The translations under genes were made by a program, and so were the position numbers. A stretch of 64,000 nucleotides of DNA from Methylorubrum extorquens (lineage in GTDB: Bacteria; Pseudomonadota; Alphaproteobacteria; Rhizobiales; Beijerinckiaceae): positions 3,850,001 to 3,914,000 of the forward strand of contig NZ_JALJXF010000001.1 of the NCBI RefSeq assembly GCF_024169925.1, read 5' to 3'. Positions 19,268 to 50,950 of the stretch are shown here, in pieces (the first letter of the stretch is position 1; each line of letters starts with the position of its first letter). Below the pieces are notes generated by a model that saw only the letters and a list, made by a program, of their open reading frames with translations, did not search any database and was not told where the DNA came from.

Positions 19268-19278
19268 GACGCCGCGTT

Positions 19279-19936: not shown

Positions 19937-19947
19937 GGGAGGGCAGC

Positions 19948-20142: not shown

Positions 20143-20155
20143 GGAGGGCTTACCC

Positions 20156-20665: not shown

Positions 20666-20688
20666 CGCCACGATTAAGTCGAACGCCG

Positions 20689-20730: not shown

Positions 20731-20779
20731 CAGGGACCGTTCGAGACGCGTCCCGACGGCAATTCCTGGGATACGAGAC

Positions 20780-32196: not shown

Positions 32197-32207
32197 CGGT
32201 AAACTCC

Positions 32208-32591
32208 TCAGGCCGCTTCAGCGCGCACTTCGCGAACCACGATCGTGAGGTTCGCAAAGGGCTTCAGGATGCGCGCGCCGCGACCGCGGGCACGGGCGTG
32301 GAAGCGCTTGAGCACCAGCGCCTTGCCGACGAAGGCCTGGGAGACGACGAGATCGTCCACGTCGAGATCGTGGTTGTTCTCGGCGTTGGCGATCGCGCTC
32401 TCCAGGCACTTCTTCACATCGCGGGCGATGCGCTTGCGGGAGAATTCGAGATCGGCAAGGGCCGTGTCGACCTTCTTGCCGCGGATCAGCGCCGCCACGA
32501 GGTTGAGCTTCTGGGGCGACACGCGGAGCATCCGCGCGACGGCCTTCGCCTCGTTCTCGGGGAGCGCGCGGGGGGTGGCAGGCTTGCCCAT
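32208..32591 (-). CDS. rplV: 50S ribosomal protein L22
   Basis: 127 residues from ATG 32591 ([19 protein letters not shown]); the open frame to 32723 overlaps rpsS and is a shadow. [20 protein letters not shown] and the tunnel loop around [21 protein letters not shown] identify uL22. It is separated from the rpsS stop by a single base. Confidence 0.97.
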
Positions 32592-32592
32592 C

Positions 32593-32871
32593 TCAGCGCC
32601 TCTTTGCCTTCTTGTCGGCCGCGTGACCGGGGAAGGTGCGGGTCGGCGAGAACTCGCCGAACTTGTGACCGACCATCTCCTCGGTGACGTAGACCGGGAT
32701 ATGCTTGTGTCCGTTGTGCACACCGAAGGTGATGCCCACGAACTGCGGAAGGATCGTGGAGCGACGGCTCCAGATCTTGACGACCTCGTTGCGGCTGCCG
32801 CCGCGGGCGGCGTCGGCCTTCTTGAGGAGGTAGCCGTCGACGAACGGCCCTTTCCAGAGGGAACGTGCCAT
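32593..32871 (-). CDS. rpsS: 30S ribosomal protein S19
   Basis: 92 residues. [41 protein letters not shown] and [21 protein letters not shown] are uS19, in the 30S head next to uS13. It begins 5 nt after rplB on the same strand. Confidence 0.98.
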
Positions 32872-32876
32872 GGCTG

Positions 32877-33713
32877 TTACTTCTTGCGGTTATGGCGGCT
32901 GGACAGGATGAAGGTATCGGTCCGCTTGTTGGACCGGGTCTTCTTCCCCTTGGTGGGCACGCCCCAGGGCGTGACCGGGTTCCGGCCGCCCGAGGTACGA
33001 CCCTCGCCGCCGCCGTGCGGGTGATCCACCGGGTTCATGGCGACACCGCGAACGTGCGGGCGCTTGCCGAGCCAGCGGTTACGGCCGGCCTTGCCCAGCG
33101 AGATGTTCATGTGGTCCGGGTTCGACACCGCACCCACAGTCGCGAAGCACTGACCGTGCACGAGGCGCTGCTCGCCCGAGTTCAGGCGCAGCGTCACGTA
33201 GCCCTGGTCGCGTCCGACGATCTGAGCGTAGTTGCCGGCGGAGCGGGCGATCGCGCCGCCCTTGCCGATCTTCAGCTCGACGTTGTGGACGATGGTGCCC
33301 ACCGGCATGGAGCCGATCGGCGCCGCATTGCCCGGCTTCACGTCGACGCTCTCACCGGCGATCACCTTGTCACCCGGCGACAGGCGCTGGGGGGCGAGGA
33401 TGTAGCTCTGCTTCCCATCGGGGAAGGTGATGAGCGCGATGAACGCCGTCCGGTTCGGATCGTACTCGATCCGCTCCACCGTCGCGGGAACGTTGAGGTT
33501 CTCGCGACGCTTGAAGTCGACGTTGCGCAGGACCCGCTTGTGACCACCGCCGCGGAAGCGGACGGTGATGCGGCCCAGGTTGTTGCGGCCGCCCGAGGAG
33601 CTCTTGCCCTCGGTCAGCGCCTTCACCGGCTTGCCCTTGTAGAGCTCACGGCGATCGACGAGCACGAGCTGGCGCAGGCTCGGCGTGACCGGTTTGAATG
33701 TCTTCAAGGCCAT
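32877..33713 (-). CDS. rplB: 50S ribosomal protein L2
   Basis: 278 residues. [31 protein letters not shown] [13 protein letters not shown] and the [14 protein letters not shown] loop identify uL2. The loop His in HPHGGG, needed near the peptidyl-transferase centre, is present. Confidence 0.98.
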
Positions 33714-33738
33714 CGGCTTGATCCTAACGCTTCAAGTC

Positions 33739-34035
33739 TCAGAGGCCGGTCGTGACGTCGATCGTATCACCCTCGGCGAGGGTCACGATCGCCTTCTTCA
33801 CGTCCGAACGCTGCCCGCGCTGCCCGCGGAAGAACTTCTTCTTGCCCTTGGTCGTGAGCGTGTTCACGCCCGTGACCTTGACGTCGAACAGACGCTCGAC
33901 CGCTTCCTTGATCTGCGGCTTGGTGGCCTTCGGGGCAACCCGGAAGACGACCTTGTTCTGCTCAGTGAGGTTCGTCGCCTTCTCCGTGATCACGGGGGAG
34001 ACGATGATGTCGTAGTGGCGCGGATCGGCACTCAT
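33739..34035 (-). CDS. rplW: 50S ribosomal protein L23
   Basis: 98 residues. [25 protein letters not shown] and [25 protein letters not shown] are uL23, the tunnel-exit docking site for trigger factor. Its ATG overlaps the rplD stop codon by 4 nt. Confidence 0.98.
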
Positions 34036-34652
34036 TTGAAACGCTCCTCCAGCGCATCGACGGCGGCGCGCGTCAGCACGAGCGTGTCGCGGCGCAGGAT
34101 GTCGTAGACGTTGATGCCCTGGACGGGCAGCACATCGATCTTCGGAATGGCGCGGGCGGCGCGGCCGAAGTTCTCGTCCACTTCAGCGCCGCCGATGATC
34201 AGCGCGCTCGACAGACCGAGCTTCTCGAAGCGCTCGATCATGGCCTTGGTCTTGTGGTTGTCGACCTTGATGTCGTCGACGACGATCAGGGTCGAGGCCT
34301 TGGCCTTGGCCGAGAGGGCGTGCTTGAGCGCCAGCGCCCGGACCTTCTTGGGAAGGTCATGGCTGTGGTCGCGCACCACCGGACCGAAGGCCCGGCCGCC
34401 GCCGCGGAACTGCGGGGCGGAGGCAGCGCCGTGACGGGCGTTGCCGGTGCCCTTCTGCTTGTACAGCTTCTTGGTCGTGCGATCGACGTCCGAGCGGTTC
34501 TTGACGGCGTGGGTACCGGCGCGCCGCTTGGCGAGCTGGTAGCGCACCATCCGCTGCAGGATGTCGGCGCGCGGCTCGAGGCCGAAGATCGCCTCGTTGA
34601 GCTCGACCGAGCCGGCGGAGCCGCCGTCGAGCGTGGTGATATCGAGTTTCAT
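34032..34652 (-). CDS. rplD: 50S ribosomal protein L4
   Basis: 206 residues from ATG 34652 ([14 protein letters not shown]), in a TGATG overlap with rplC; a GTG one codon earlier is possible. [32 protein letters not shown] is the uL4 tunnel loop. In E. coli L4 represses the S10 operon; a comparable leader was not identified here. Confidence 0.98.
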
Positions 34653-35392
34653 CACGCGTTCTCCTCGGACGCCGGAGCCTCGGGGGCCGCCTCGACCTGG
34701 GACGCGCCGGCAGAACCGTTCTCACGGAACTTGCCCGGCAGCGGCACATCGGCCGGCAGCTTGCGCTTGACCGAGTCGCGAACCTGGATCCAGCCGCCGG
34801 CGACACCGGGGACGGCGCCTTCGACGAGGATCAGGCCGCGCTCCGGATCGGTGCGGACGACCTTGAGGTTCTGCGTGGTCACGCGCTCGACGCCCAGGTG
34901 ACCCGGCATCTTCTTGTTCTTGAAGGTCTTGCCCGGATCCTGACGGCCACCGGTCGAACCGATCGAACGGTGGGAGATCGACACGCCGTGGGTGGCGCGC
35001 AGACCGCCGAAGTTCCAGCGCTTCATGCCGCCGGCGAAACCCTTACCCGTGCTGGTGCCCGTCACGTCGACGAACTGACCCGGGATGAAGTGATCGGCGG
35101 TGATCTCGGCACCGACCGGGATCAGCGCGTCCTCGGACACGCGGAACTCGGCGAGCCTCTTCTTGGGCTCGACCTTGGCGACCGCGAAGCGGCCACGCTC
35201 GGCCTGCGACACGTTCTTTACCTTGGCCTTGCCGACGCCGACCTGGAGGGCGACGTAGCCATCCTTCTCGGTCGTGCGGTGTGCCACGACTTGGCACTGA
35301 TCAATCTGGAGCACAGTGACGGGCACATGCTCGCCAGCGTCCGTAAAGACGCGGGTCATGCCGACCTTCCGTGCGATGACGCCTGAGCGCAT
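34652..35392 (-). CDS. rplC: 50S ribosomal protein L3
   Basis: 246 residues, longer than E. coli's 209 because of a C-terminal Ala/Glu-rich tail ([20 protein letters not shown]). [34 protein letters not shown] and [23 protein letters not shown] are uL3. The MKRWNFGG Gln/His-type methylation loop region is present. Confidence 0.98.
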
Positions 35393-35442
35393 AGGTCTCT
35401 CCCTCGCGCGATGAAACGGTAAGCTCTAAATCCGACGCGGAC

Positions 35443-35751
35443 TTAGAGCTTGATCTCCACGTCCACGCCAGCGGCGAGGTCGAGCTTCATCAGCGCGTCC
35501 ACGGTCTGCGGCGTCGGGTCGACGATATCGAGCACCCGCTTGTGCGTGCGCATCTCGAACTGCTCGCGCGACTTCTTATCGATGTGCGGCGAACGGTTCA
35601 CCGTGAACTTCTCGATATGGGTCGGCAGCGGGATCGGGCCTCGGATCTGCGCGCCGGTGCGGCGCGCGGTCGAGACGATTTCCTTGGTGGACGCATCGAG
35701 GATGCGGTGATCGAACGCCTTAAGGCGAATGCGGATGTTCTGACCGTTCAT
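35443..35751 (-). CDS. rpsJ: 30S ribosomal protein S10
   Basis: 102 residues. [43 protein letters not shown] is uS10, which also partners NusB in antitermination. First S10-operon gene, 79 nt after tuf and apparently continuous with the str block. Confidence 0.98.
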
Positions 35752-35830
35752 GACCTGACCTCGGCGGAAACGTTGAGGAGCGGGCGCGAGGGCCCGCCCC
35801 TCTTACGTCCCCTGTCGATGATGCTTGCGG

Positions 35831-37021
<1,191 letters not shown>

Positions 37022-37074
37022 CAGGGCCTCCTAATCGTCAGTGTCGTTGATCGAGGAAGTTTGACGCGTTCGCG

Positions 37075-39150
37075 TCAGGCGTACTTGGCAATGACCTTAT
37101 CGGCCTCGCCGCGCGGCACTTCCTCGTAATGGTCGAACTGCATCGTGAAGTTGGCGCGTCCCTGGGAGAAGGAGCGCAACTGGTTCACGTAGCCGAACAT
37201 GTTGGCCAGCGGTACCATCGCGTTGATGACGTTGGCGTTGCCGCGCATGTCCTGGCCCTGGATCTGGCCGCGGCGGGAGTTGAGATCGCCGATGACCGAG
37301 CCGGTATACTCTTCCGGCGAGACAACCTCGACCTTCATGACCGGCTCGAGCAGAACCGATCCGCCCTTTTGCAGCGCCTCGCGGAAGGCGGCGCGGGAGG
37401 CAATTTCGAAGGCCAGCGCCGAGGAGTCGACGTCGTGGTAGGCGCCGTCGATCAGCTCGACCTTGACGTCGACCACCGGGAAGCCGGCGAGCACGCCTGC
37501 GCCGAGGACCGAGTTGAGGCCCTTCTCGACACCGGGGATGTACTCCTTCGGCACCGCGCCGCCGACGATCTTCGACTCGAAGGCGAAGCCGGCACCCGGC
37601 TCGTTCGGCTCGACCACGAACTTCACCCGGGCGAACTGACCGGTGCCGCCGGTCTGCTTCTTGTGGGTGTAGTCGATCTCCTGACGGCGGGTCAGCTTCT
37701 CGCGGTACGCCACCTGCGGCTGACCGATATTCGCGTCGACCTTATAGGTACGGCGCAGGATATCGACCTTGATGTCGAGGTGCAGCTCGCCCATCCCGCG
37801 AAGGATGGTCTGACCGGATTCCTGGTCAGTCGAGACGCGGAAGGACGGATCCTCGGCGGCGAGCTTGGAGAGCGCGATGCCGAGCTTCTCCTGATCGGCC
37901 TTCGACTTCGGCTCGACGGCGATCTCGATGACGGGCTCGGGGAACTCCATCTTCTCGAGGATCACCGCGTCCTTCGGATCGCACAGCGTATCGCCGGTGC
38001 GGGTGTCCTTGAGACCGGCCAGGGCGACGATGTCGCCGGCGAAGGCCTCCTTGACGTCCTCACGGTTGTTGGCGTGCATCAGGAGCATGCGGCCGACGCG
38101 CTCTTTCTTGTCGCGCGACGAATTGATGACGTTGGCGCCCGACTCGACCTTGCCGGAATAGACGCGGCAGAAGGTGATCGTCCCGACGTGGGGATCGTCC
38201 ATGATCTTGAAGGCGAGCATGGAGAAGGGGTCGGTGTCGGACGGGTGGCGAACCACCTCTTCCTCGGTCTTGAAGTCGAGACCCTTGATCTCGCCGCGGT
38301 CGGCGGGAGACGGGAGGTAATCGACGACGGCGTCGAGGAGCGGCTGCACGCCCTTGTTCTTGAAGGCCGAGCCGCACAGCACCGGGTGGAAGGCGCGAAG
38401 CTGCACCGCCTTGCGCACGAGCCGGCGCAGGGTCTCCTCGTCCGGCTCGACGCCGTCGAGGTAGGCGGTCATCGCGTCGTCGTCGAGCTCGACGCAGGCT
38501 TCGATCATCTTGGTGCGGTACTCGACCGCCTGATCGGCGAGATCGGCCGGGATCTCCTCCTCGGAGAAGTTGGCGCCGAGCGCCTCACCCGACCAAACGA
38601 TCGCCTTCATCTTGATGAGGTCGATCACGCCCTTGAAGCTCGACTCGGCACCGATCGGCAGCTGCAAGCAAACCGGCTTGCCGGCCACGCGGCCGATGAT
38701 GTCGGCAACGCACTTGAAGAAGTCGGCGCCGATCTTGTCCATCTTGTTGACGAACACGACACGCGGCACGTCGTACTTGTCGGCCTGACGCCACACGGTC
38801 TCGGTCTGGGGCTCGACGCCCTGGTTGCCGTCGAGCACGCATACGGCGCCGTCGAGCACGCGGAGCGAGCGCTCCACTTCGATGGTGAAGTCGACGTGGC
38901 CGGGGGTGTCGATGATGTTCAGGCGCTTCTCGCGCCAAAAGCAGGTGGTTGCAGCCGAGGTGATCGTGATGCCACGCTCCTGCTCCTGCTCCATCCAGTC
39001 CATCGTGGCGGCGCCCTCATGGACCTCGCCGATCTTATGGGACTTTCCGGTGTAGTAGAGGATCCGCTCGGTCGTCGTGGTCTTGCCGGCATCGATGTGG
39101 GCCATGATGCCGAAGTTGCGGTAGTCCTCGATCGCATGCGTGCGGGGCAT
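37075..39150 (-). CDS. fusA: Elongation factor G
   Basis: 691 residues. [31 protein letters not shown] contains the P-loop; [17 protein letters not shown] and [11 protein letters not shown] follow. Domain IV has [18 protein letters not shown]. Catalyses GTP-driven translocation, and with RRF helps recycling. Full length; str-operon position between rpsG and tuf. Confidence 0.98.
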
Positions 39151-39224
39151 CGGGGTCTCTCCGGGAGAAAGCGGGCACGAAGCGCGGCCCCTTGGCCGCG
39201 CTCGAAGGTCTCAGGACCGGCGAA

Positions 39225-39695
39225 TTACCAGCGGTAGTGCGAGAAGGCGCGGTTGGCCTCGGCCATCCGGTGGGTGTCTTCGCGCTTCTTGACGGCGTTA
39301 CCGCGGTTGTTGGCGGCGTCGAGCAGCTCGGCGGAGAGACGCTCGATCATGGTCCGGTCGTTGCGGCCGCGGGCGGCCTGGATCAGCCAGCGGATCGCGA
39401 GAGCCTGACGGCGCTCGGTGCGGACTTCGACGGGGACCTGGTAGGTCGCGCCGCCGACGCGGCGGGACCGGACCTCGATCGCCGGGGCGACGTTGTCGAG
39501 CGCGGCGCGGAACACCTCGATCGGATTGGCGCGGGCGCGGTTCTCGACGATGTCGAACGCGCCGTAGACGATCCGCTCGGCGGTCGACTTCTTGCCCTCG
39601 TACATGATGGAATTCATGAACTTGGTCAGAACGACATCGCCGTACTTGGCGTCCGGGATGATCTCGCGCTTCTCGGCAGAGTGACGACGGGACAT
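39225..39695 (-). CDS. rpsG: 30S ribosomal protein S7
   Basis: 156 residues. [48 protein letters not shown] is uS7, the assembly initiator of the 30S head and repressor of the str operon in E. coli. 106 nt after rpsL. Confidence 0.98.
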
Positions 39696-39801
39696 CTGTT
39701 TACTCTCAGATCAATCGACTTAAGCACCTCGCGCAGGCCGCCTTGAGCGTGAACGCCGGCGACATCCTTGCGAGGCCGTGAAAATGGCCGCCCGGAGATT
39801 C

Positions 39802-40173
39802 TTACTTCGGACGCTTTGCACCGTACTTCGAACGGCGCTGCTTGCGGTTCTTGACGCCCTGCGTGTCGAGCACGCCGCGCAGGATGTGGTAGCGCACACC
39901 CGGAAGGTCCTTCACGCGGCCGCCGCGGATCATGACCACGGAGTGCTCCTGAAGGTTGTGGCCCTCGCCGGGGATGTAACCGATCACCTCGAAGCCGTTG
40001 GTCAGGCGCACCTTGGCGACCTTACGAAGCGCCGAGTTCGGCTTCTTCGGGGTCGTGGTGTAGACGCGCGTGCAAACGCCGCGCTTCTGCGGGCAGGCGT
40101 TGAGCGCCGGCACCTTGTTGCGCGCCTTCTGCGCCTTGCGCGGCTGGGCGATCAGCTGGTTGATCGTCGGCAT
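39802..40173 (-). CDS. rpsL: 30S ribosomal protein S12
   Basis: 123 residues. [46 protein letters not shown] and [18 protein letters not shown] are uS12. The lysines in TPKKPNSA and GGRVKD, whose changes give streptomycin resistance, are both wild type, so a sensitive ribosome is predicted at this locus. First gene of the str operon. Confidence 0.98.
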
Positions 40174-40561: not shown

Positions 40562-43500
40562 TTATTCCGCGGCGTTCGAGAGACGGAAAGCGTCGATTCC
40601 GCGGCGATCCGGATTGATTTCGGCGAGCGCCCGCTTGGCGGTTTCCAGCGGATGTTCGGCCTCGATTCGGACCGAGCCGAGATCCGGGCTCTTGTAGACG
40701 GTGACGACGGTGTCCATCACCTCGGTCAGCGTCGTGCGCTTGTCCTCCGGCGCGGCGATGAGGAGTTGCAGCCCCCAGGCGCGGAAGAGGTCGACCAGCG
40801 ACTGGCTGTTGCGCACGTCGAGCTTCGAGAAGGCCTCGTCCAGAAGGCAAAGACCTAAGCCCGGCGTCTCGTCGCCGGGACGGTCGCCGGGATAGTAGGC
40901 CGAGGCCATCGAGGCGGCGATCGCCACGTAGAACGGCGCCTGCGCCTCGCCGCCCGAACCGCGCAGCGCCCGGCTCGACAGCGTGGTGCGGTTGCCCGCC
41001 CGGTCGCGCATGCCGATCTCGTAGACGAAGTAGTTTCGGTAATCTGCCAGCCGTGCGGCGTTCTCCTCGCCCTCGATCAGCGCCGTGATCTCGGCGAGTG
41101 CGGCTGCGAGCGGGCTCTTGTCGGGGCCCTCCTCCGGGCCCGGTAGCACCGCCTGCGCCGCGTCGGGTGAGCGGGCGACTTCAGTGGCGAGCGCGTGGAC
41201 GGCGGCGTAGCGGCGGTCCACCTCCGCCTCGAAGGCGTAGGTCTGGCCGGTGAAGGTCTGCGAGGCGAGGCGCTCGTTGAGGGCATCGAGCCGGGCGCGC
41301 ATGCGCTCGAACTTGTCGGCGAGCCGCGTCAGCAGATCCTCGGTCATCAGGCGGCGCATCTCGGCCTCTGCCCGGAGCGACTGGTCGCGGTAACGGCGCA
41401 ACTCGTGCCCCGCCACCTCGTCGCGCTCGCGGGTCGCCCAGGCATAGCCGAACGAAGCCGGCTGCTCGCCCGAACCGAGGGGATTCTCGACGCGCCACGC
41501 GGCGCAATACTCGGCAAGGTCGCGCTCGGCGGCGCGGCCCTGGTTGCGCACGCTGTCGGCGGCCTCGCGAGCGGAGGCACGGGCCTGCGAAGCGAGCGAG
41601 GCCAGCGCCCTGGTGTCGAGCGCAGCGCGGTCGGCCCGCGCCGCGGCGATCCCGGTCACCGTGTCCGGCACGTCGGCGGGGACGGTACCGGTGAGGCGTA
41701 TGCGAACGGTGTCGCCGGTGGTCCAGCGCCGGAGCGCCGTGCGGTAGGCCAGGAATGCGGCGCGCGCCGCCTCCTTCCCTTGCGCGACACGCGCCTTCAG
41801 CCCGGCTTCTTCCGCGAGCGCGGCGTCGCGCTTGGGCTCCAGCACCTGCACGAGTTCGGTGAGATAGGCGGAGCGCTCCTTCTGAAGCTCCTTCAGCTCC
41901 GCCTCGATCACGCCGGCATCGGCGCGGGCGACCGTCTCCTGCTCGGTGGAGAGGCTGCGGCGGCGGCCCTCGATGGCGTCGGCCTCGGCGCGCAGGGCCT
42001 CGATATCGACCGGCGCTTCCGCCAGCCGGCTCCGCAGCAGCGCGGCGATGCGGGCGGCCTCGCGCATCACGGTTGCCTCGGCCCGCAGGGTCCGCGCCTC
42101 CTCGCGTGCCTCGTCGAGGCGGCGGCGGGTCTCGGCGGTGGGCCCGCGCTGGCCGCGGGTCATCATCAGCGGCACAGGGCGCACCACCGAATAGGCCATG
42201 CCCGAGGTCGAGCGCCCACTCGGCGCCACCGCACGGCTCATGTTGCGGAGCGCGGCATCGTCCGGGGCAAGGTCGTAGCCGCCGAGCCGTGCCGCGAGGA
42301 AAGCCTCGGCGTGGTCGCTGTCGGTCTCGATCAGGCCCATCGGCCCGTCATCGAAGCGCCGCGCGGAACGCCGCGCGGTATCGGTGGTCTTCACCAGGAG
42401 ACAGCGGAAGAATTGATTCTTCCGCGATTCGAGCAGGGCGAAGGCGCGGTCGAGCCGGTCGGGCTCGACCACAAGCGCCTCGCGGGCGCGGCCGAGCAAG
42501 CCTTCGAGTGCCGGGCCCCATTTCGGATCGACGATTTCGGCAAGTTCGCAGATCGGCGCCGCCTCGATGCCGAGCCGGCCCAACTCATCGCGGAAGGCCT
42601 CCGTGTCGGAGGACAGGCGCGCGGCCGAGGACCGGCCGGCCCCGACCTGCACGTCGAGGCCGCGCACCTCGTTCTCGCGCTCACGGGCCTTGAGGGCGAG
42701 ATCCTCCGCTTGTTCTTCCAGAGCGTCGGCCACGTCGGGCATCTGCGCAAGGCCGTCGAGCAGCCCCTTCAACGGCCCGTCGACCCGGAGAATGTCCTCC
42801 GGGGGGGCCTCGCGGCGCAGCCCCGAGCGAGCGCAGGCCTCGACGATGCGGGCGGCCCCCGGATCGATCCGGCGCAGGGGGCCGGCAATGGCGCTGAGGC
42901 GGCCGGCATCCTGCACGAGGCCAACGATCCCGGCGAGGCGGTTGGTGAGGTCGCGCCGGTCGCGGGCGACCATGGCGAGACCGGCATGGGAGGCCGCGAG
43001 CCGTGCCTCCGCGACGCTGCCGACGATCAGTGCCTTGCGGGCAGCGATCTCGGCATCGATCTCGCGCACGAAGCCCTGGCTCGTCGCCACGCTCTCGCGG
43101 GCGATGCGCAGGCGCTCCGACGTCTCGGCGAGCAGGCGGCGGGCCTCGGCGTGGTCAAGGATGCGGCGGCGGAGATCCGCGCTCGCCGCACGCATCTCGT
43201 CCAGCGCGGCGGTGAGGCTCGCCCGGGCCCAGCCCTCGTAGCGCGCGCAGATGCGCGAGAGGTGGGCGAGGCGCTTCTCCAGTTCCTCGATGGTCTCCAG
43301 CAGACGCCGCCACGTCTCGATCGACTGGCGGATGCGGGCGACATCGAGCGGCTCGGCCTCCAGTACGAAGCTGCGCACGAAGGCGCTGGTGTCGAAGATC
43401 GGCTTGAAGGCCACCGCGTTGGAGAAGGTGCGCAGGAACTGGCGCGGATCGGGCACGGCCGCCCCCTCGCGCAGGGTCGCCAGCACGGCGGCGGTGAAGC

Positions 43501-44029
43501 GCTCGCCGGAGGTGCGGAACTCCTCGAACGTGTCGGACCGGCGGCGGAGATCCGCGGCGATCTCCGCCCAGGGTGCGACGAAGCTGCCCTCGCTCGTCTC
43601 GCGCACGTAATCGGCGATCTCGAAACGGTGACCGACGGCGATGAAGCGCGAAAGCGTCTCCTCCTTCGGCTCCTCCGAGCGGGCGGCGAGCGCAAGCCCG
43701 ACCGTGACGATGCGGCCGCTCGCGGGATTCTCGAACACGAGGCTGATGAGGGTCTCGCAGGCCTCCCGCGTCGGGCGCCCGCCCTCGGCCGGGTCGCTGA
43801 TCCAGCCGAGGCAGTAGTCGCGCACCGTGCGGGCGCTGCGGCCCGAGGCGGAAGCGTTGAGGGCGAGCCGGCTCGCATTGTTGCCGGCCAGCACCGTGCC
43901 GACCGCATCGAAGATCGTGGACTTGCCCGCGCCCGTGGGACCGACGAGCGCCGCCGCCCCCCGAATCCGAATCTGCTCGCGCCGGATGAGGTACCAGTTC
44001 GAGATCGCAATGTCGGTGAGGCGGTACAC
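40562..44029 (-). CDS. jetC: JetC/MksB-like SMC-family ATPase
   Basis: 1155 residues. The N-terminus LTDIAISNWYLIRREQIRIRG leads to Walker A GPTGAGKST (residues 30-38). Long Ala/Arg/Glu-rich coiled-coil arms fill about residues 230-480 and 620-950. The C-terminal ATPase half has the ABC-type signature GSGGEAQ (about 1024-1030), Walker B LCLLDEAF (about 1061-1067) and D-loop SKLD. This SbcC/MukB-like layout is that of JetC in Wadjet and MksB in MksBEF complexes, which extrude DNA loops. The partner-like jetB and jetA genes lie 5 kb upstream on the same strand, and no JetD gene follows. RecN/SbcC-type repair ATPases are less likely given the partners. Confidence 0.8.
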   Translation of the reverse strand: MYRLTDIAISNWYLIRREQIRIRGAAALVGPTGAGKSTIFDAVGTVLAGNNASRLALNASASGRSARTVRDYCLGWISDPAEGGRPTREACETLISLVFENPASGRIVTVGLALAARSEEPKEETLSRFIAVGHRFEIADYVRETSEGSFVAPWAEIAADLRRRSDTFEEFRTSGERFTAAVLATLREGAAVPDPRQFLRTFSNAVAFKPIFDTSAFVRSFVLEAEPLDVARIRQSIETWRRLLETIEELEKRLAHLSRICARYEGWARASLTAALDEMRAASADLRRRILDHAEARRLLAETSERLRIARESVATSQGFVREIDAEIAARKALIVGSVAEARLAASHAGLAMVARDRRDLTNRLAGIVGLVQDAGRLSAIAGPLRRIDPGAARIVEACARSGLRREAPPEDILRVDGPLKGLLDGLAQMPDVADALEEQAEDLALKARERENEVRGLDVQVGAGRSSAARLSSDTEAFRDELGRLGIEAAPICELAEIVDPKWGPALEGLLGRAREALVVEPDRLDRAFALLESRKNQFFRCLLVKTTDTARRSARRFDDGPMGLIETDSDHAEAFLAARLGGYDLAPDDAALRNMSRAVAPSGRSTSGMAYSVVRPVPLMMTRGQRGPTAETRRRLDEAREEARTLRAEATVMREAARIAALLRSRLAEAPVDIEALRAEADAIEGRRRSLSTEQETVARADAGVIEAELKELQKERSAYLTELVQVLEPKRDAALAEEAGLKARVAQGKEAARAAFLAYRTALRRWTTGDTVRIRLTGTVPADVPDTVTGIAAARADRAALDTRALASLASQARASAREAADSVRNQGRAAERDLAEYCAAWRVENPLGSGEQPASFGYAWATRERDEVAGHELRRYRDQSLRAEAEMRRLMTEDLLTRLADKFERMRARLDALNERLASQTFTGQTYAFEAEVDRRYAAVHALATEVARSPDAAQAVLPGPEEGPDKSPLAAALAEITALIEGEENAARLADYRNYFVYEIGMRDRAGNRTTLSSRALRGSGGEAQAPFYVAIAASMASAYYPGDRPGDETPGLGLCLLDEAFSKLDVRNSQSLVDLFRAWGLQLLIAAPEDKRTTLTEVMDTVVTVYKSPDLGSVRIEAEHPLETAKRALAEINPDRRGIDAFRLSNAAE

Positions 44030-44462
44030 CGGCCTGGCCGCTTATCCCGAGGTTGAGCGAGAGACAGCGCAATGGACGCTCCGCCTCACGCACGCAAGGG
44101 CGGGAGCGCGGCAGGCCGCAGGCGTCGCTCGATCACCACAATCTGAGGATGCCATTATCCAGAGTCACAACTTTTCCAAGCGGCCGATGGCATGGATACA
44201 GCAATCACCGACCCGTGATTTGACGGAGCCGCGTCGATCCGAGACCAGAACCACAGGAGTGCCGGCTGCGGCTCGACGCACGGAACAACTGCGACAGACT
44301 TCTTACAACGGCAGGTTTACGAAATTCGTTCGATTACTGCCTTTCCACACATCATGCGTACTTTGACACATGCGAGAACCACCTATTTTGACACAAACCC
44401 AATACGATTCGTGCCATACGGCGAAATGCGCTCCCCGACTGTCACGAACGCCGATCGTTGAA
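44030..44462. other. Intergenic region upstream of the JetC-like gene
   Basis: About 430 nt. It is less GC-rich than its surroundings. Two TTTTGACACA/CTTTGACACA direct repeats begin at about 44361 and 44386, 25 nt apart, each containing TTGACA, but neither has a good -10 box at the right distance. No gene seen. Confidence 0.5.
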
Positions 44463-44570
44463 ATGCCCGCCCGCCGTCCGCGCCTGATTTACGGGGTTCT
44501 GTTTATTGTCGCCTCGATTGTACTGTGGGGCACAGCATCGTGGATAGCAGGTCGTATCATCTGGATCTGA
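44463..44570 (+). CDS. Putative 35-residue single-span membrane peptide
   Basis: Reads MPARRPRLIYGVLFIVASIV and then one hydrophobic helix ending WIAGRIIWI. The positive-inside N-terminus with a single transmembrane span is plausible for a small membrane protein. The frame extends upstream to 44370 but the additional residues are not protein-like. The ribosome site is weak, so this is a tentative call. Confidence 0.35.
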   Translation: MPARRPRLIYGVLFIVASIVLWGTASWIAGRIIWI

Positions 44571-44577
44571 TCCTGAC

Positions 44578-44805
44578 TCAGACATCTTTCCTGCAGGCGA
44601 TATAGCCTCCCAAAACATAACCGCCCTGCAGCGCGCAGAGAGAGGCGGCAATCATCAACAGATCGGCTAGCACCAACTGGCCGCTGTGGAAGTGATAGAT
44701 GACCCGCGCGACGATGATAAAAAAGCTCGCAACGGCAAGCATCCCCCAGTGGTAAAACAAGCCGATCAACAGTCCGGCAATAACGAGAAGCGGGATCGCT
44801 AGCAC
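44578..44805 (-). CDS. Small membrane protein, unknown function
   Basis: 75 residues from GTG 44805. Two to three hydrophobic helices (LAIPLLVIAGLLIGLFYHWGMLAVASFFIIVARVIY, then LVLADLLMIAASLCALQGGYVLGGYIA) with a charged end RKDV. No family was recognised. It is divergent from the MarR-GNAT gene across about 370 nt containing two palindromes. Confidence 0.6.
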   Translation of the reverse strand: MLAIPLLVIAGLLIGLFYHWGMLAVASFFIIVARVIYHFHSGQLVLADLLMIAASLCALQGGYVLGGYIACRKDV

Positions 44806-44901
44806 TGGTTCATGACCCTATCCTGCCGGATCGGCACCTGAGAGCCTTTTTGAGGAAATCTTTCCTTATGTTACCGCTGCGGACGACTGCGCGCAAAGGG
44901 T

Positions 44902-44922
44902 CACTTGGCTTAAAGCTAAGTG
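44902..44922. promoter_or_regulatory. 21-bp palindrome, possible operator
   Basis: CACTTGGCTTAAAGCTAAGTG is symmetric around 44912 with ten pairs, one of them G-T. It lies in the divergent space between the small membrane-protein gene and the MarR-GNAT gene, and resembles a regulator-binding dyad. Confidence 0.4.
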
Positions 44923-45136
44923 GATTTTGCAGGTTCCCGTTTTTCCCAGGGCATCGTTAACGAACCGCTCACCCTAAGGAGGGACGTCCGGACAGGAGGC
45001 GCCACCTTGGCGCAGCTGCGTATCGAGCCGCGCATCAGCGTATTCGACCTTCATCGCAATGACACGCGTCGTGCCCCGGCACCGCCCGTTCGTCCGCGAT
45101 TTTGCCAAGGCCGCGCCTCAGGCTGCCTGCCAGTTA

Positions 45137-45163
45137 GTTGACTCTGTCAACCTTCTCGTTGAC
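45137..45163 (+). promoter_or_regulatory. GTTGAC palindrome, candidate MarR-GNAT operator
   Basis: GTTGAC (45137-45142), TCT, GTCAAC (45146-45151) is a perfect dyad. A third GTTGAC half-site lies at 45158-45163, 21 nt (two helical turns) from the first. The site ends 10 nt before the ATG at 45173, so a bound protein would block translation-region transcription. Autoregulation is inferred. Confidence 0.6.
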
Positions 45164-45172
45164 GTTGAGGCC

Positions 45173-46138
45173 ATGAAGGAAGTCAGCGCCGACGACGTCA
45201 TCGACACGGTCCGCCGCTTCAACCGGTTCTACACCGGGCTCGTCGGTGCGCTCGACGAGCAGTTTCTCGGCTGCGACGTCACGCTTCCGGATGCACGTCT
45301 GCTGTTCGAAATCGCGACGCACGACCCGGCCCAATTTCCGCTCACCGCTTCAGCGGTGCAGGCGACGCTCGGCATGGATGCGGGCTATGTCAGCCGGATC
45401 CTGGCCCGCTTCGAGCAGCGGGGCTGGATCACCCGTGCCCGCGGCGCAGATGCGCGCGCCCGGCCGATCCAACTGACCGAAGCCGGGCGCAGGGCGTTCG
45501 AAGAGGTGGACGGACGGCAGCGCGCCGCTGTGGCCCGCCTCGTCGGCGGCCTCGATACCGTCCAGAGGGCGGATCTGGCAGAGGCGATGGCGCGCGTGCG
45601 CCTGCTGCTGCAACCCAAATCCGTTCCGGGCTTCGCGATCCGCCCGTTCCGCACGGGGGATATGGGCCTGATTGCGGCCCGGCAATCGATGCTCTACGCC
45701 CAGAGCCACGGTTGGGGCCGCGGCCTGGAGATCATCGAGGGTGAGGCCACCACCAACTTCCTGCGGAATTTCAAGCCGGGGCGCGAGCAGTGCTGGATCG
45801 CGGAGATCGACGGCGTGCTGGCGGGGTCCGTCTTCCTCACCGACGAAGGTGACGGCACCGCGCGGCTGCGCCTCCTCTATGTCGAGCCTTTCGCCCGCCG
45901 CCGCGGTATCGGCGATACGCTGGTCGAGACCTGCATCGGCTTTGCCCTTGAGACGGGCTATGCCCGCCTCACGCTGTGGACCCATACGGTTCTGGAAGGC
46001 GCCCGGCGCCTCTATGCCCACCATGGCTTCGTCTGCGTCGAGACCGCGCCCCATAACAGCTTCGGCATACCGGTTGACGGGGAAACCTGGATGCTGCCCC
46101 TGAGCGAGACGGGGGAGGCACCGGGGCAGGCCGCGTGA
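45173..46138 (+). CDS. MarR-GNAT fusion protein (regulator/acetyltransferase)
   Basis: 321 residues from ATG 45173 (MKEVSADDVIDTVRRFNRFY); the frame from 45059 is not used because the operator would lie inside it. Residues about 1-150 are a MarR-type winged helix (TASAVQATLGMDAGYVSRILARFEQRGWITR, wing RGADARARPIQLTEAG). Residues about 153-310 are a GNAT domain with FARRRGIGDTLVETCI as acetyl-CoA loop and LTLWTHTVLEGARRLYAHHGF as the C-terminal part. It may sense or acetylate a ligand and repress its own operon. The fusion is known in bacteria, and the target is unknown. A GC-rich hairpin (GGGGGC/GCCCCC) lies just after the stop. Confidence 0.87.
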   Translation: MKEVSADDVIDTVRRFNRFYTGLVGALDEQFLGCDVTLPDARLLFEIATHDPAQFPLTASAVQATLGMDAGYVSRILARFEQRGWITRARGADARARPIQLTEAGRRAFEEVDGRQRAAVARLVGGLDTVQRADLAEAMARVRLLLQPKSVPGFAIRPFRTGDMGLIAARQSMLYAQSHGWGRGLEIIEGEATTNFLRNFKPGREQCWIAEIDGVLAGSVFLTDEGDGTARLRLLYVEPFARRRGIGDTLVETCIGFALETGYARLTLWTHTVLEGARRLYAHHGFVCVETAPHNSFGIPVDGETWMLPLSETGEAPGQAA

Positions 46139-46200
46139 CGGGGGCGATGCCCCCGCCACACTGAGTGTGTCAGGCAAAGTCGCCGACCCCCGCGGTAAGC

Positions 46201-46830
46201 TTAGCCGCCGAAATTCTTGGCGAGCCACGCCCCGGATGCGGCAAGATCGGCCTGCGATAGGCCGTGACCGGCCGGGTTGACCGTGTGCATCACCGCCGCG
46301 CCGGTTTGCTGGAGACGCGCGGCGAGCCGTTCGGCATTCTCGGCGGGCACGATCGGATCGAGAGCACCCGAGAGCAGCAGCACCGGGCGGCCGGCGAGGT
46401 CGGCCGGCGGGCTCTCGGCGAGCGGCACCATCGCCCGCAGCAGAACCGCCCCGGCCAACACCTCCGGGTGCAGGAGCAGGATCGCTGCGGCGATGTTGGC
46501 CCCGTTCGAGAAACCGACCGCCACCGGCGCGGCGAGCTCGTAAGCCGCCCGCGCCTGGGCGACGAAGGCGGCGAGGTCGCCGGCCCGGCGGCGGACGTCC
46601 GCCTCGTCGAACACACCCTCCGCGAGACGGCGGAAGAAGCGCGGCATCCCGTTCTCCAGAACCGGCCCGCGGGGCGAGAGCAGCGCGGAGCCGGGCGAGA
46701 GCGTGCGGCCGAGGGATAGCAAGTCGTTCTCGTCCCCGCCCGTGCCGTGCAGCAGCAGAAGTGGCGGCGCGCGCTCATCTGTGCCGGGCTCGAAGCGGTG
46801 GACGAAGTCGAAGGTGACGCCGTTCGTCAT
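46201..46830 (-). CDS. Alpha/beta hydrolase, MhqD-type esterase
   Basis: 209 residues. LLLLHGTGGDENDLLSLGRTL gives the oxyanion region, GFSNGANIAAAILL carries the nucleophilic Ser (G-x-S-x-G), LLSGALDPIVP the acid and NPAGHGLS the His, so the triad is complete. It belongs to the phospholipase/carboxylesterase family. The gene order with the ring-cleaving dioxygenase upstream (76 nt, same strand) mirrors the Bacillus mhq quinone-detoxification operons. It probably acts on a cleavage product. Confidence 0.87.
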   Translation of the reverse strand: MTNGVTFDFVHRFEPGTDERAPPLLLLHGTGGDENDLLSLGRTLSPGSALLSPRGPVLENGMPRFFRRLAEGVFDEADVRRRAGDLAAFVAQARAAYELAAPVAVGFSNGANIAAAILLLHPEVLAGAVLLRAMVPLAESPPADLAGRPVLLLSGALDPIVPAENAERLAARLQQTGAAVMHTVNPAGHGLSQADLAASGAWLAKNFGG

Positions 46831-46906
46831 GGCTGTCTCCGTTCAGTCTGGGGAGGGTGCGACCGCCCGGACAGGATCCGGGCGGCCGCGACGGTGGGCG
46901 GTCGGT

Positions 46907-47836
46907 TCAGGCGACCTTCGGCAGCACCGCCTCGATCCGCCCGCGATGCGGCTCGAGGAAGGGCGGCAGCTTCAGTGCGGTCCCGAGCTCCGCCGCCGGC
47001 TCGTCGATGGCAAAGCCCGGCGCGTCGGTGGCGATCTCGAACAGCACGCCGCCGGGCTCGCGGAAGTAGACCGAGCGGAAGTACTGCCGGTCGCGCTGCT
47101 CTGTCACGGACAGGCCGTGCCGCTCGCTCAGCCGTTCCGTCATCGCCGCCTGCGCCGCGTCGTCGGCGGCACGGAAGGCGATGTGGTGGACCGAGCCCGC
47201 CCCCTGCCGGCCGGGCAGGAAGTCGCCGACAGCCCTAAGCGTCACGAGCCCGCCGAGGCCCGCCCCGCTCGTCAGCCGGATCTGGCTACCCTCGCGGGCG
47301 ACCTCCGCGAAGCCGAGCCCATCGGTGAGGATCGCAGCGGTCGACTCCGCCTCGCGCAGGAGCAGGGTGGCGCCGTGGAAGCCGCGGATCGCGTTCTCCG
47401 GCGCAATGCCCTCGGACGTCCAGGCCGGCTCGGTCTCCGCCCCCTCGACGCCGACGAGGGCCAGCGGCATCCCGTCGGGATCGCGGAAGCGCAGCACGGT
47501 CTCGCCGAAGACCGTGACCGGTGCCTCATGCGCGACGTTCAGCGAAACGAAGCGGTGCGTCCATTCACCGATGGAAGCGCGCGGCACACGGAAAGCGGTC
47601 TCCGACACCTGCCCGATGCCGACCCGGCCGGGGGCCGCCTGTGCGATCGGGAAGAAGGTGAGGATCGTGCCGGGCGCGCCCGCCTCGTCGCCGAAATAGA
47701 GGTGGTAGGTGCCCGGATCGTCGAAGTTGACGGTCTTCTTCACCAGCCGCAGGCCGAGCACGCGGGTGTAGAAGTCGATGGTGCGGGCCGTGTCGCTGGC
47801 GAAGGCCGTGACATGGTGGATGCCGTGCGCGCTCAT
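46907..47836 (-). CDS. Ring-cleaving dioxygenase (glyoxalase superfamily, MhqO/MhqA-like)
   Basis: 309 residues from ATG 47836 (MSAHGIHHVTAFASDTARTI). Two vicinal-oxygen-chelate modules are present: HHVTAFASDTARTIDFYTRVLGLRLVKKTVNFDDPGTYHLYFGD and later GSVHHIAFRAADDAAQAAM with YFREPGGVLFEIATD. His and Glu metal ligands are visible in both parts (HHV, HHI, FEI). These proteins open hydroquinone or catechol rings with Fe(II) and O2. It is divergent from a LysR gene with a perfect dyad in between, so it is probably LysR-controlled. Quinone or dye stress is the likely setting (inference). Confidence 0.87.
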   Translation of the reverse strand: MSAHGIHHVTAFASDTARTIDFYTRVLGLRLVKKTVNFDDPGTYHLYFGDEAGAPGTILTFFPIAQAAPGRVGIGQVSETAFRVPRASIGEWTHRFVSLNVAHEAPVTVFGETVLRFRDPDGMPLALVGVEGAETEPAWTSEGIAPENAIRGFHGATLLLREAESTAAILTDGLGFAEVAREGSQIRLTSGAGLGGLVTLRAVGDFLPGRQGAGSVHHIAFRAADDAAQAAMTERLSERHGLSVTEQRDRQYFRSVYFREPGGVLFEIATDAPGFAIDEPAAELGTALKLPPFLEPHRGRIEAVLPKVA

Positions 47837-47935
47837 GATGCGGGTCTCCTGTCCGAGAAGATCGCCGCGGGGATCGGTGTCCGGGCTGCGATCGGTGTGA
47901 GCCCAATCTGGCCCTTGCCTGCCCGCCTGAAAATG

Positions 47936-47959
47936 GAAACGATTGAAACGCATCGTTTC
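47936..47959. promoter_or_regulatory. Perfect dyad, probable LysR operator
   Basis: GAAACGAT (47936-47943) and ATCGTTTC (47952-47959) are inverted across 8 nt in the 135-nt divergent region. The spacing is that of LysR-type operators. It is centred about 25 nt before the LysR GTG and about 110 nt before the dioxygenase ATG. Confidence 0.65.
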
Positions 47960-47971
47960 TGGATTTGATCA

Positions 47972-48934
47972 GTGGCGAAACTCCCCGATTTCGAGGCCTG
48001 GGCCGTGTTCGCGGTGGTGGCCGACGCCCTCTCCTTCGCCCGCGCGGCCGACGAACTCGGGCTGTCGAAGGCGACCGTCTCGAAGGCGGTGGCGCGGCTG
48101 GAGGGCCGACTCGGCGCACGGCTGTTCCACCGCACCTCCCGCCGTCTCGCGCTTACGGAAGCCGGCCGCTTGGCGCGGGAGGACGCAGCGGGGCTGCTCG
48201 CGGCGGGCGAGGCGGCCGAGGCCCGCGCGCTCGACGCCAACGGCGTGCCACGCGGGCGGGTGCGGCTTGCCGCCCCCATGTCCTTCGGGATCGCCCACCT
48301 CGCGCCGGTGCTGCCGGAGTTCCTGGCCACATACCGCGAGGTTTCGGTCGATCTGCACCTGTCCGACGCGGTGGTCGATCTCGTCGGCGGCGGGTTCGAT
48401 CTCGGCCTGCGCATCGCGGCTTTGCCCGATTCATCGCTCCGTGTGCGGCGTCTCTGCGGCGTGCGCCGCTCACTCGTGGCGACGCCGGCCTATCTCGAAC
48501 GCTACGGACCACCGCAGCACCCGGAGGATCTGAAGGCCCGCGCCTGCCTCGGCTACGCCTACCTGCCGACGCCGGACCGTTGGCCCTTCACCAACGCCGC
48601 CGGTGAAACCGTGACGGTCGTGCCCGAAGGCCCGCTGCGGGCCAACAACGCCGACGCGCTGGCGCCAGCGCTGCGGGCCGGGCTCGGCCTAGCGGTGCAG
48701 CCAGATTTCACGATCTGGGAGGATCTGACATCGGGCCGCCTGGAGCGGGTGATGCCGGACTGGCAGCCGCCGCCGATCGCCCTTAACCTCGTGATGCCGC
48801 CAGGCCTGCCGCGGCCGGCGCGGGTCTCGGCGCTGATTGCCTTCTTGGAGCGGGCTTTCTCCACCGCCCCCTGGGCGCAGGAGGAGAGTCAGATGCCCCT
48901 CCCCTCCCCGGCGGAGGCCCAGGCGCGGACCTGA
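47972..48934 (+). CDS. LysR-family regulator, divergent from the dioxygenase
   Basis: 320 residues from GTG 47972. The winged helix is WAVFAVVADALSFARAADELGLSKATVSKAVARLEGRLGARLFHRTSRRLALTEAG, and the substrate-binding fold follows (ARGRVRLAAPMSFG, then GFDLGLRIAAL and the RACLGYAY region). This branch is close to those controlling quinone/dioxygenase genes, and its target is most likely the divergent dioxygenase-esterase pair. Its last 46 nt overlap the end of the convergent jetB-like gene, which is unusual but plausible. Confidence 0.9.
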   Translation: MAKLPDFEAWAVFAVVADALSFARAADELGLSKATVSKAVARLEGRLGARLFHRTSRRLALTEAGRLAREDAAGLLAAGEAAEARALDANGVPRGRVRLAAPMSFGIAHLAPVLPEFLATYREVSVDLHLSDAVVDLVGGGFDLGLRIAALPDSSLRVRRLCGVRRSLVATPAYLERYGPPQHPEDLKARACLGYAYLPTPDRWPFTNAAGETVTVVPEGPLRANNADALAPALRAGLGLAVQPDFTIWEDLTSGRLERVMPDWQPPPIALNLVMPPGLPRPARVSALIAFLERAFSTAPWAQEESQMPLPSPAEAQART

Positions 48935-49524
48935 TCCATCCAGGCATCCGGCGAGAGCACGGTGATGCCCGGCATCACCATCAGCGGCGTCACCCGCTCG
49001 GCGCGGTCACGCTCGCCCAGCCGCAGCGCGCCCTTGCGGGCGAACAGGCGCAGAATCTCGATCAGACGCGCCTCGTCCGGCGGCTCGGTGCGGGCCGCCG
49101 AGCGGATCGCGTCGGCGATGTCGTCGGTGGTGCATTCCACGGTGCCGTCGGTGGAGACGCGGTGGTCGCGCAGGCCCTCCTCGTAGGCGAGCCGGAGCGC
49201 CAGCAGCACCAGGGTCTCGTCCTTGCGCAGGCGCTCGCCCTGCGCATCGTGGCGCACGCCGTCGGGCGGCAGGGCCAAAAACACCATCTGGTCGCGGTGG
49301 GCGACCTCGAAGCGGTATCCGAGGCAGGCGAAGTAGTCGCGGAAGAACGGCGCGTAGTGCCGCGCGAGTTCGTAGGAGCGGCCGATGCCGGTGGTCGCGG
49401 CGTAGATGCACTGGCTCTTCAGCATGACTTGGAGCGCGCGGATCAACTCCTCCTCGCTCGGCGCGGAACTGCCGGGCGGCGGCATCTCCTCGCCGTCGAG
49501 GATGGCGCGGAAGGATTCGAGCAT
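48889..49524 (-). CDS. jetB: JetB/MksE-like (KITE) protein, DUF4194-type
   Basis: 211 residues from ATG 49524 (MLESFRAILDGEEM), 14 nt after the jetA stop; GTG at 49560 overlapping jetA would add 12 residues. The core ELIRALQVMLKSQCIYA, GRSYELARHYAPFFRDYFACLGYRFEV, KDETLVLLALRLAYEEGL and DIADAIRSAARTEPPDEARLIEILRLFARKGALRL matches the winged-helix KITE subunit of Wadjet and MksBEF. KITE proteins bind the kleisin-like JetA/MksF. It is co-directional with jetA, and jetC is 5 kb downstream. Confidence 0.78.
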   Translation of the reverse strand: MLESFRAILDGEEMPPPGSSAPSEEELIRALQVMLKSQCIYAATTGIGRSYELARHYAPFFRDYFACLGYRFEVAHRDQMVFLALPPDGVRHDAQGERLRKDETLVLLALRLAYEEGLRDHRVSTDGTVECTTDDIADAIRSAARTEPPDEARLIEILRLFARKGALRLGERDRAERVTPLMVMPGITVLSPDAWMDQVRAWASAGEGRGI

Positions 49525-49537
49525 CGCTTCTGTCCGT

Positions 49538-50950
49538 TCAGCCTGCTTTGCCGGCTCCACGCCGGGCGGCGGGGGGCGGTATGCGCTCGATCATGAAGTC
49601 CGGACAGTCGAGCCAGCCGTTGGAGACGCGGCCCTCGATCCGGGCGACGCGGTAGCGCTCACGCAGCACGCCGTCGAACAGCACGTCGATCTCGCGCAGG
49701 CGCTGAAAGACGACGAAGGCATCGACGTCGTGGACCGCGATGTCCGAGCCGCGCAGGGCCTTCCCCCCCGCGAGCCGCGCGTCGAGATAGGCGACCATGC
49801 GCTCCGGCGTCACCGTGATGCGGCGGCGGAACGCGTCCTTGGCGGCGATGAAGGCCTCGATCGCCGGATCGATGTCGATCTCCGGCAGCGGCTCGTACTC
49901 GATGATCCGGCGCGGCATGCGCGGATTGGTGAGTTGCGGCGGGCCGATGGGGGGACGCAGCAGCGAGACCTGCGGCAGGGGCAGGCCGGTGAGGTCATCC
50001 TCGCTCGCGCCGACCGCGCGCAACGCCGCCGCCGCCCGCTCGATCCGGGCGGAATCGCGCGGGTCGCGGTAGCGGAGCGCGGCCGAGATGCGCCGCTCCA
50101 ACCGCGTCACCACCTCGGCCACCGCGTCGAGATGCGGGTCGAGCCCCTCGAAGATCGAGAGGATCTCGACGAGGTCGGTGCGCACCATCCGCTCGGCGGC
50201 GGTGATGTCGGCGGCGCGGCCCTCGCGCAGGTTGCCGTCGGCCAGCGCCCTGAGCGTCAGCGGATCGCGCAAGGCGCGACCGGCTTCCCGCACGATGCCG
50301 GAGCGGAAGCGGAACGGATTGAAGCGGGTGTGCAGCGTCCGGTAGTCGGAGACGAGGTGGCGCTCGACGAATTCCTCGAAGTAGAGCCGGAAGGCGGCGC
50401 TGAGGTCGGGCTCGCGCAGGATTCGCTCTTCGAGCTTGCGCATTGCCCCGGCGAGGCCCCGCAGGTGTCCGAGGAAGGTGCGCGAGGCTTTCGCCGCATT
50501 GCGCAGGGCCTCCGAGCGGTCGGCGGGACTGGCGATGGCGCTTTCCAGGGCGCTCAGGACTTCGAGCACCGCGCCGCCGTAGGAGCGGGTCTCGCCGCGC
50601 TCGATCCGGGCCAGTTCCTCGATCAGCAGACGCGCATCGGGATCGAAATCGACCACCGGCACGTAGCGCTCGCGCCGTTCCACCAGCCAGCCGGCCTCGA
50701 TCAGCCGCCGGAACACCGCCGAGCGCCGCTCGATGGGATCAACGGGCGTCGCCTCGTCGTCGGCGATCTCGGCCTGGCTCCACCCGGCGGAGAAGTCGCC
50801 GATCGCGGCCAGAAGCTCGCTCTTGCGCAGGGGCTCGGCGGCATCGCCGAACACGCGGGCGTGCAGGTGCAGCAGCAGGGCCGCGTTGAAGGCGCGGCTC
50901 GGCGAGGCGAGCGGGCGGAAGAGGTCGTCGGCGAGATGGGTGAACAGCAT
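49538..50950 (-). CDS. jetA: JetA/MksF-like kleisin-type subunit
   Basis: 470 residues. MLFTHLADDLFRPLASPSRAFNAALLLHLHARVF and RRSAVFRRLIEAGWLVERRERYVPVVDFDPDARLLIEELARIERGETRSYGGAVLEVLSALESA are typical of Wadjet JetA proteins: an N-terminal winged helix, then a long helical middle, then a C-terminal domain. It is expected to bridge the JetC heads and bind JetB. The gene overlaps or abuts jetB. Length is normal. The assignment rests on order (jetA-jetB) and text; the exact type (I, II or III) is not assigned. Confidence 0.78.
   Translation of the reverse strand: MLFTHLADDLFRPLASPSRAFNAALLLHLHARVFGDAAEPLRKSELLAAIGDFSAGWSQAEIADDEATPVDPIERRSAVFRRLIEAGWLVERRERYVPVVDFDPDARLLIEELARIERGETRSYGGAVLEVLSALESAIASPADRSEALRNAAKASRTFLGHLRGLAGAMRKLEERILREPDLSAAFRLYFEEFVERHLVSDYRTLHTRFNPFRFRSGIVREAGRALRDPLTLRALADGNLREGRAADITAAERMVRTDLVEILSIFEGLDPHLDAVAEVVTRLERRISAALRYRDPRDSARIERAAAALRAVGASEDDLTGLPLPQVSLLRPPIGPPQLTNPRMPRRIIEYEPLPEIDIDPAIEAFIAAKDAFRRRITVTPERMVAYLDARLAGGKALRGSDIAVHDVDAFVVFQRLREIDVLFDGVLRERYRVARIEGRVSNGWLDCPDFMIERIPPPAARRGAGKAG

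Follow-up and report, generated by a model that had tools for sequence, protein, structure and literature searches.

The stretch of Methylorubrum extorquens DNA analysed here (64,000 nucleotides, contig NZ_JALJXF010000001.1, positions 3,850,001 to 3,914,000; hereafter the window) carries three minus-strand genes, jetA, jetB and jetC, which encode the type I Wadjet subunits JetABC, a core of the structural maintenance of chromosomes (SMC) type. The fourth Wadjet subunit, the Toprim nuclease JetD, is absent. The initial annotation had recognized a JetABC-like set divided by about 5 kb and lacking jetD, and the profile searches described below bear out both observations. The genes are:

49538..50950, minus strand: jetA, kleisin subunit, 470 aa (PADLOC JetA1 and Pfam PF18982)
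48889..49524, minus strand: jetB, KITE subunit, 211 aa (PADLOC JetB1; start from homologue alignments)
40562..44029, minus strand: jetC, type I Wadjet SMC-like ATPase, 1155 aa (PADLOC JetC1, Pfam SbcC_Walker_B and AAA_29, motifs intact)

A type I Wadjet core without its nuclease

The PADLOC type I models were matched by all three proteins across nearly their full length. The top model for JetC was JetC1 (PDLC00506, 1959.7 bits, residues 1-1155 of 1155), JetA matched JetA1 (PDLC00466, 745.6 bits) as well as the Pfam family JetA (PF18982, 222.8 bits), and JetB matched JetB1 (PDLC00475, 389.9 bits, scored on a longer form of the protein) and Pfam DUF4194 (67 bits). The ATPase motifs of JetC are the Walker A sequence GPTGAGKS (residue 30), the signature SGGE (1025) and the Walker B sequence LLDEAFSKLD (1062), and they are kept with few substitutions in 45 loci (30 from the genus Methylobacterium, 13 from Microvirga and Aurantimonadaceae and two from plasmids), one row deviating in the signature. 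A search of JetC gave no NCBIfam match at E 1e-10, which places it outside the Smc sequence family. Pfam matches to MukB, MukE or MukF were likewise not found, the scan returning JetA, DUF4194 and general ATPase domains for JetABC, and comparison of JetA with solved structures (phmmer) gave no match at E 1. For jetB the initial annotation had the right gene and a start at 49560; the ATG at 49524, 12 codons further in, is probably the true start, since alignments with relatives in the genus mostly begin around residue 13 of the longer form. A gap of 4.9 kb lies between jetAB and jetC, so that the locus lacks the contiguous jetABCD arrangement of type I Wadjet.

In the window's genome (5.26 Mb, four contigs) neither PF09983 (JetD_C) nor the JetD1 model PDLC00521 found a match. 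Within the genus PF09983 was found in none of 37 genomes, and in one of 61 relatives overall, that one being a member of another family; PDLC00521 revealed no full-length JetD in 111 genomes of the genus. A weak match in G015 is a relic, composed of JetA N-terminal and JetD scraps of a different Wadjet (L155:4555-4900), and another in G126, at 20 bits, was unsupported by JetD queries on the sequence concerned (L154), so that neither was accepted as a working JetD. On the strength of these profile searches of loci and genomes, a jetD gene concealed close to jetABC or at a distance from it was rejected. As a control, 297 genomes were searched for JetA, which passed the cut-off in five members of the order from outside the genus. 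Four of these carry JetD, and the fifth (G280) has a JetA fragment only. The jetD gene immediately follows jetC in the order-member loci L135, L136 and L137, and metagenome-assembled genomes (MAGs) of a Rhodospirillaceae member (L115) and of Rhodovibrio (L117) also have jetABC and then jetD. Two genomes (G037 and G335) gave a JetD match without a JetA match.

JetA, JetB and JetC were each found in 91 of 111 genomes of the genus, and the three sets of genomes are identical. The genes are contiguous (all gaps of at most 250 bp), without jetD, in nine of the 91, while 40 show the pattern of the window, with jetA and jetB together and jetC 1.5-15 kb away; these gaps were measured with approximated gene lengths, and 14 of the 91 remained unmeasured with genes on different contigs. 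In G086 jetA lies 2.5 Mb from jetBC, and in G098 all three genes are apart. Relative to four near relatives, the ratio of non-synonymous to synonymous substitution rates (dN/dS) was 0.02-0.12 for jetA, jetB and jetC and 0.02-0.13 for fusA. The genes in the jetB-jetC gap gave 0.13-0.42. The jetABC genes are under purifying selection. Because the trio is co-retained in an identical set of genomes and under such selection, it does not behave as a decaying defence operon.

Smc and ScpAB in genomes with JetABC

Smc-ScpAB is the standard bacterial condensin, and its best-known replacement is MukBEF. The loss of Smc-ScpAB, the central fact of this analysis, was not seen in the initial annotation. We searched for Smc with TIGR02168 (E 1e-10) in 80 chosen genomes, with seven candidate stretches scored per genome; the set comprised 35 of the 91 JetABC-positive genomes of the genus, all 20 JetABC-negative ones, 15 outgroup genomes, four order members with JetABCD and six family members from other genera. 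None of the 35 JetABC-positive genomes had an Smc of at least 300 bits (nothing exceeded 50 bits, and six gave matches of 40-50 bits), against 18 of the 20 JetABC-negative genomes; G064, also JetABC-negative, has a 72-bit Smc piece at a contig edge. At the same level Smc was present in all six family members from other genera and in all four order members with JetABCD, and no match was found in any of 12 Aurantimonadaceae with solo JetABC. Smc of at least 300 bits was also found in Microvirga and in the Rhodospirillaceae genome mentioned above, and not in the Rhodovibrio MAG.

ScpA follows the same distribution. In 25 genomes of the genus, PF02616 was matched in none of 21 with JetABC and in all four without, and in other families it was found in 15 of 16 genomes, the missing one being an 84%-complete genome. 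The Methylobacterium names among the best 120 Smc and the best 120 ScpA proteins listed do not overlap with those of the JetC list, unnamed and multispecies entries aside: the former include nodulans, currus, tarhaniae and crusticola, the latter thiocyanatum, zatmanii, suomiense, organophilum, mesophilicum and soli.

The positions that smc and scpAB occupy in Smc-positive relatives can be located in the window's own chromosome, and both are closed up. In G014 and G023, scpA-scpB lies between nagZ and tat genes (L188, L189). The corresponding region of the window's chromosome (L234, C1:2580001-2600000) contains, by tblastn, what we take to be argS, a SPOR-type gene, nagZ, tatA, tatB and tatC, without scpAB. 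The nagZ-tatA spacing is about 0.27 kb, and no convincing scpAB remnant was found there, the top ScpB match (E 0.008) falling inside nagZ. Similarly, smc is flanked in G107 and G023 (L190, L191) by a DsbA-like gene on one side and atpI-atpB on the other; the G023 copy reads as two open frames. The window's chromosome keeps the order mutY, DciA-like gene, DsbA-like gene, atpI, atpB (L243, L244) without smc, and the spacing from the DsbA-like gene to atpI is about 0.15 kb. In the 1.2 Mb of this genome that were read besides the window, Smc, ScpA and ScpB gave no match at E 1e-3.

Relatives of JetABC and surroundings of the locus

Outside the genus, Microvirga massiliensis and members of the Aurantimonadaceae (Aureimonas, Antarcticirhabdus) are among the nearest relatives, with JetC about 41-42% identical. 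In these loci jetA, jetB and jetC stand side by side, and no JetD match was obtained with seven JetD queries in the flanks of any of the 13 loci (L102-L114), where flanks of at most 10 kb, and less in L105, were covered; two of the 13 relatives have JetD end fragments. In a JetC tree of 37 rows, rooted by midpoint only and containing several long branches, Methylobacterium, Microvirga and Aurantimonadaceae fall in a 23-row JetABC clade (support 100/100) that includes seven rows without context, and all seven JetD-bearing rows fall outside it. The loss of JetD seems to predate the genus, and it may be older still, as seven further outside rows (among P0097-P0104) were not assigned for JetD.

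The initial annotation had proposed that an ancestral operon was split and JetD lost. Each part holds, but not as a joined event: contiguous jetABC without jetD, in nine of the 91 genomes of the genus as well as in Microvirga and Aurantimonadaceae, indicates that the two were separate, JetD probably having been lost first and the operon split later. Further JetABCD systems in addition to a nuclease-free set, which the initial annotation had named as a finding against its proposal, exist in an Aureimonas MAG (L150) and in Microvirga massiliensis (L151, where an open frame was taken to be jetB), not in the window's genome; in both, this second system is separate and of another subfamily.

The gap between jetB and jetC and the region downstream of jetC contain the following genes:

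47972..48934, plus strand: LysR-family regulator in the gap (Pfam LysR_substrate, 140.3 bits; gene call)
46907..47953, minus strand: glyoxalase/dioxygenase-family gene in the gap (Pfam PF00903, 70.1 bits)
46201..46830, minus strand: alpha/beta hydrolase in the gap (Pfam PF00561, PF02230)
45059..46138, plus strand: MarR-GNAT gene in the gap (Pfam MarR_2 and Acetyltransf_1)
39802..40173, minus strand: rpsL-like gene, 388 bp downstream of jetC (gene call, synteny)
39225-39695: rpsG-like gene (gene call, synteny)
37075-39150: fusA-like gene (gene call, synteny)

The LysR gene and the 3' end of jetB, on opposite strands, share 46 nt. With its rpsL-, rpsG- and fusA-like neighbors (names that we assume from translated relatives rather than from profiles), jetC occupies a core-chromosome position with no evident defence island. 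The commonest neighbor besides jetABC in 41 sequences compared is a presumably FKBP-like gene (c3), which no more than 17 of them contain; in 14 it immediately precedes jetA, and in the window it is not called. It was considered as a JetABC partner and rejected. As a separate observation, the ribosomal-protein cluster of the window seems split between 17021-22123 (plus strand; L5, S5 and SecY by Pfam) and 31450-40173 (minus strand; S3, L2, L4 and L3). By gene calls the two halves are about 7.6 kb apart, and the interval holds genes for a metallo-beta-lactamase-fold protein and an AAA ATPase.

JetABC as a candidate chromosomal condensin

We consider it likely that JetABC, a Wadjet-type motor that has lost JetD, does chromosomal condensin work in place of Smc-ScpAB. 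A broader claim, which we favor with less assurance, is that most Methylobacterium species and, independently, the Aurantimonadaceae have this nuclease-free type I core as their sole chromosomal condensin, a defence machine having displaced Smc-ScpAB while other species of the genus remain in the old state. Such a path has until now been suggested for MukBEF and MksBEF. JetABC stands in genomes without Smc-ScpAB, which, judged by presence and absence, is what a MukBEF-like replacement would look like. A coincidence is unlikely because JetABC is paired with Smc absence in two lineages and the other order members tested keep Smc.

In the passages of a review that treat these systems (PMC10586767), JetABC is described as an SMC core closely resembling MukBEF, with JetD as the nuclease, and MukBEF is said to have apparently replaced Smc-ScpAB in an ancestor; the same passages speculate on a Wadjet ancestry of MukBEF and MksBEF, and state that chromosomal loop extrusion by JetABCD is not documented. 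By analogy with Wadjet and MukBEF, the JetA kleisin, the JetB KITE protein and the JetC ATPase would assemble into a Wadjet-type SMC motor that acts on the chromosome, extruding DNA loops with ATP. Without JetD, complete extrusion or stalling would not lead to cleavage, and the motor could fold the chromosome and help to segregate it. After the loss of JetD, JetABC may have spread, in part with large plasmids, and, once it was in place, Smc-ScpAB could have become redundant and been lost in at least two lineages.

The complex shares features with several known systems. Its proteins match the type I models of Wadjet (JetABCD; MksBEFG/EptABCD), and in outgroup systems jetD directly follows jetC; it differs in having no JetD, in its dispersed genes, in being kept across most of the genus and in the missing Smc-ScpAB. 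Like MksBEF of Pseudomonas aeruginosa, it is an SMC-kleisin-KITE trio without a nuclease. MksBEF of P. aeruginosa, however, works beside Smc-ScpAB, which is gone here, and the closest model is JetC1 rather than any Muk family. With MukBEF of enterobacteria it would have in common the apparent displacement of Smc-ScpAB, as the review passages describe it (PMC10586767), but it has none of the MukB, MukE and MukF domains. With Smc-ScpAB it shares a presumed function by analogy and not, in the case of JetC, an NCBIfam family. We infer that the JetABC set is derived from Wadjet and resembles MukBEF in its working, while being a full member of neither. Among the papers listed from the openly licensed literature, titles and abstract openings contained no report of JetABC, SMC complexes or Smc loss in Methylobacterium.

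Several observations weigh against a role of JetABC as the chromosomal condensin. The evidence is all comparative, and it comes down to few independent events, one in Methylobacterium and one in Aurantimonadaceae, so that the genome counts are not independent; the Smc figures, moreover, come from 35 of the 91 JetABC-positive genomes of the genus and from only seven stretches scored in each. JetABC and Smc are both missing from G081, a 6.3-Mb genome of the genus. Microvirga massiliensis combines Smc with a solo JetABC and a JetABCD. A divergent full-length Smc (589.4 bits, L197:3352-6792) is encoded on the megaplasmid of M. extorquens AM1, beside a gene that we take to be DsbA-like. Solo jetABC is also plasmid-borne in Rhizobium leguminosarum (pRlX5, 1.3 Mb) and in Salipiger (a plasmid of 316 kb), JetD giving no match in the stretch examined, and pRlX5 has Smc-like and ScpA-like matches as well. 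Against the distant relative L074 the jet genes gave dN/dS values of 0.13-0.26 and fusA 0.04. Interrupted genes were found in G006 (a stop at residue 790 of JetC, the sole internal stop found in 41 loci), G131 (frameshifts in jetB and jetC) and G090 (jetA in two pieces), possibly sequencing errors. Finally, an N-terminal peptide of the type EFR.I(V/L)DG is conserved in solo JetB (e.g. window 49480-49524) near the reported JetD contact; it is possible that it serves a partner other than JetD.

Some of these cases have details of their own. G081 may be a genome without a known condensin, an assembly gap or a missed match. No ScpA or ScpB match was found in the 12.8 kb examined around the AM1 megaplasmid smc, and this plasmid does not appear among the 60 listed of the 81 plasmid records that gave a ScpA-like match; among the matches listed, many Roseomonas and Azospirillum plasmid records bear one. 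JetC of the Salipiger plasmid (L194:2964-9217) is 32% identical to that of the window, and the set is perhaps another independent loss of JetD. Several further jet copies are truncated at the end of a contig. The stops flagged within matches to JetB correspond, in the three loci examined that show one, to query residues 208-209, the natural end of the protein, and part of the flagged JetA and JetB rows were checked individually.

An accessory role, in which JetABC would resemble MksBEF of P. aeruginosa beside Smc and the loss of Smc-ScpAB would be a separate and unrelated event, is unlikely. It would accommodate the coexistence of solo JetABC and Smc in Microvirga massiliensis, the plasmid-borne sets in other hosts and the lack of both complexes in G081, but not the absence of Smc from all 35 JetABC-positive Methylobacterium and all 12 Aurantimonadaceae searched, its strength in 18 of 20 JetABC-negative genomes of the genus, or the recurrence of this pairing in two lineages.

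That JetABC still senses plasmids for defence, with another nuclease encoded elsewhere, is improbable. By their profile matches the proteins belong to type I Wadjet, and the JetB N-terminal peptide (EFR.I.DG) is still conserved; the review places a JetD contact at an N-terminal motif of JetB (PMC10586767, section 7). Against this, no JetD was found in the window's genome, nor a full one in the 111 genomes of the genus, in a search limited to JetD, leaving the unlinked nuclease suggested by the initial annotation with no positive support; the most frequent neighbor is a minority FKBP-like gene, the window's jetC adjoins an rpsL-like gene, and a defence sensor would not account for the tie to the loss of Smc-ScpAB.

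That the set is a decaying Wadjet remnant, disappearing in the wake of JetD, to which the split operon and the interrupted genes might point, is highly improbable and was rejected, given dN/dS values of 0.02-0.26, ATPase motifs kept with few substitutions in the 45 loci, one signature row aside, and all three genes in every one of the 91 genomes that has any of them.

The role of JetABC as condensin is in line with the other option of the initial annotation, an MksBEF-like chromosome organizer, which fits best. If this is true, a Wadjet motor seems to have become a chromosome organizer while other species of the same genus keep Smc-ScpAB, and the window's genome still shows the two sites from which smc and scpAB were deleted. 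As M. extorquens lends itself well to laboratory work, the ability of a Wadjet motor to run a chromosome would become directly testable.

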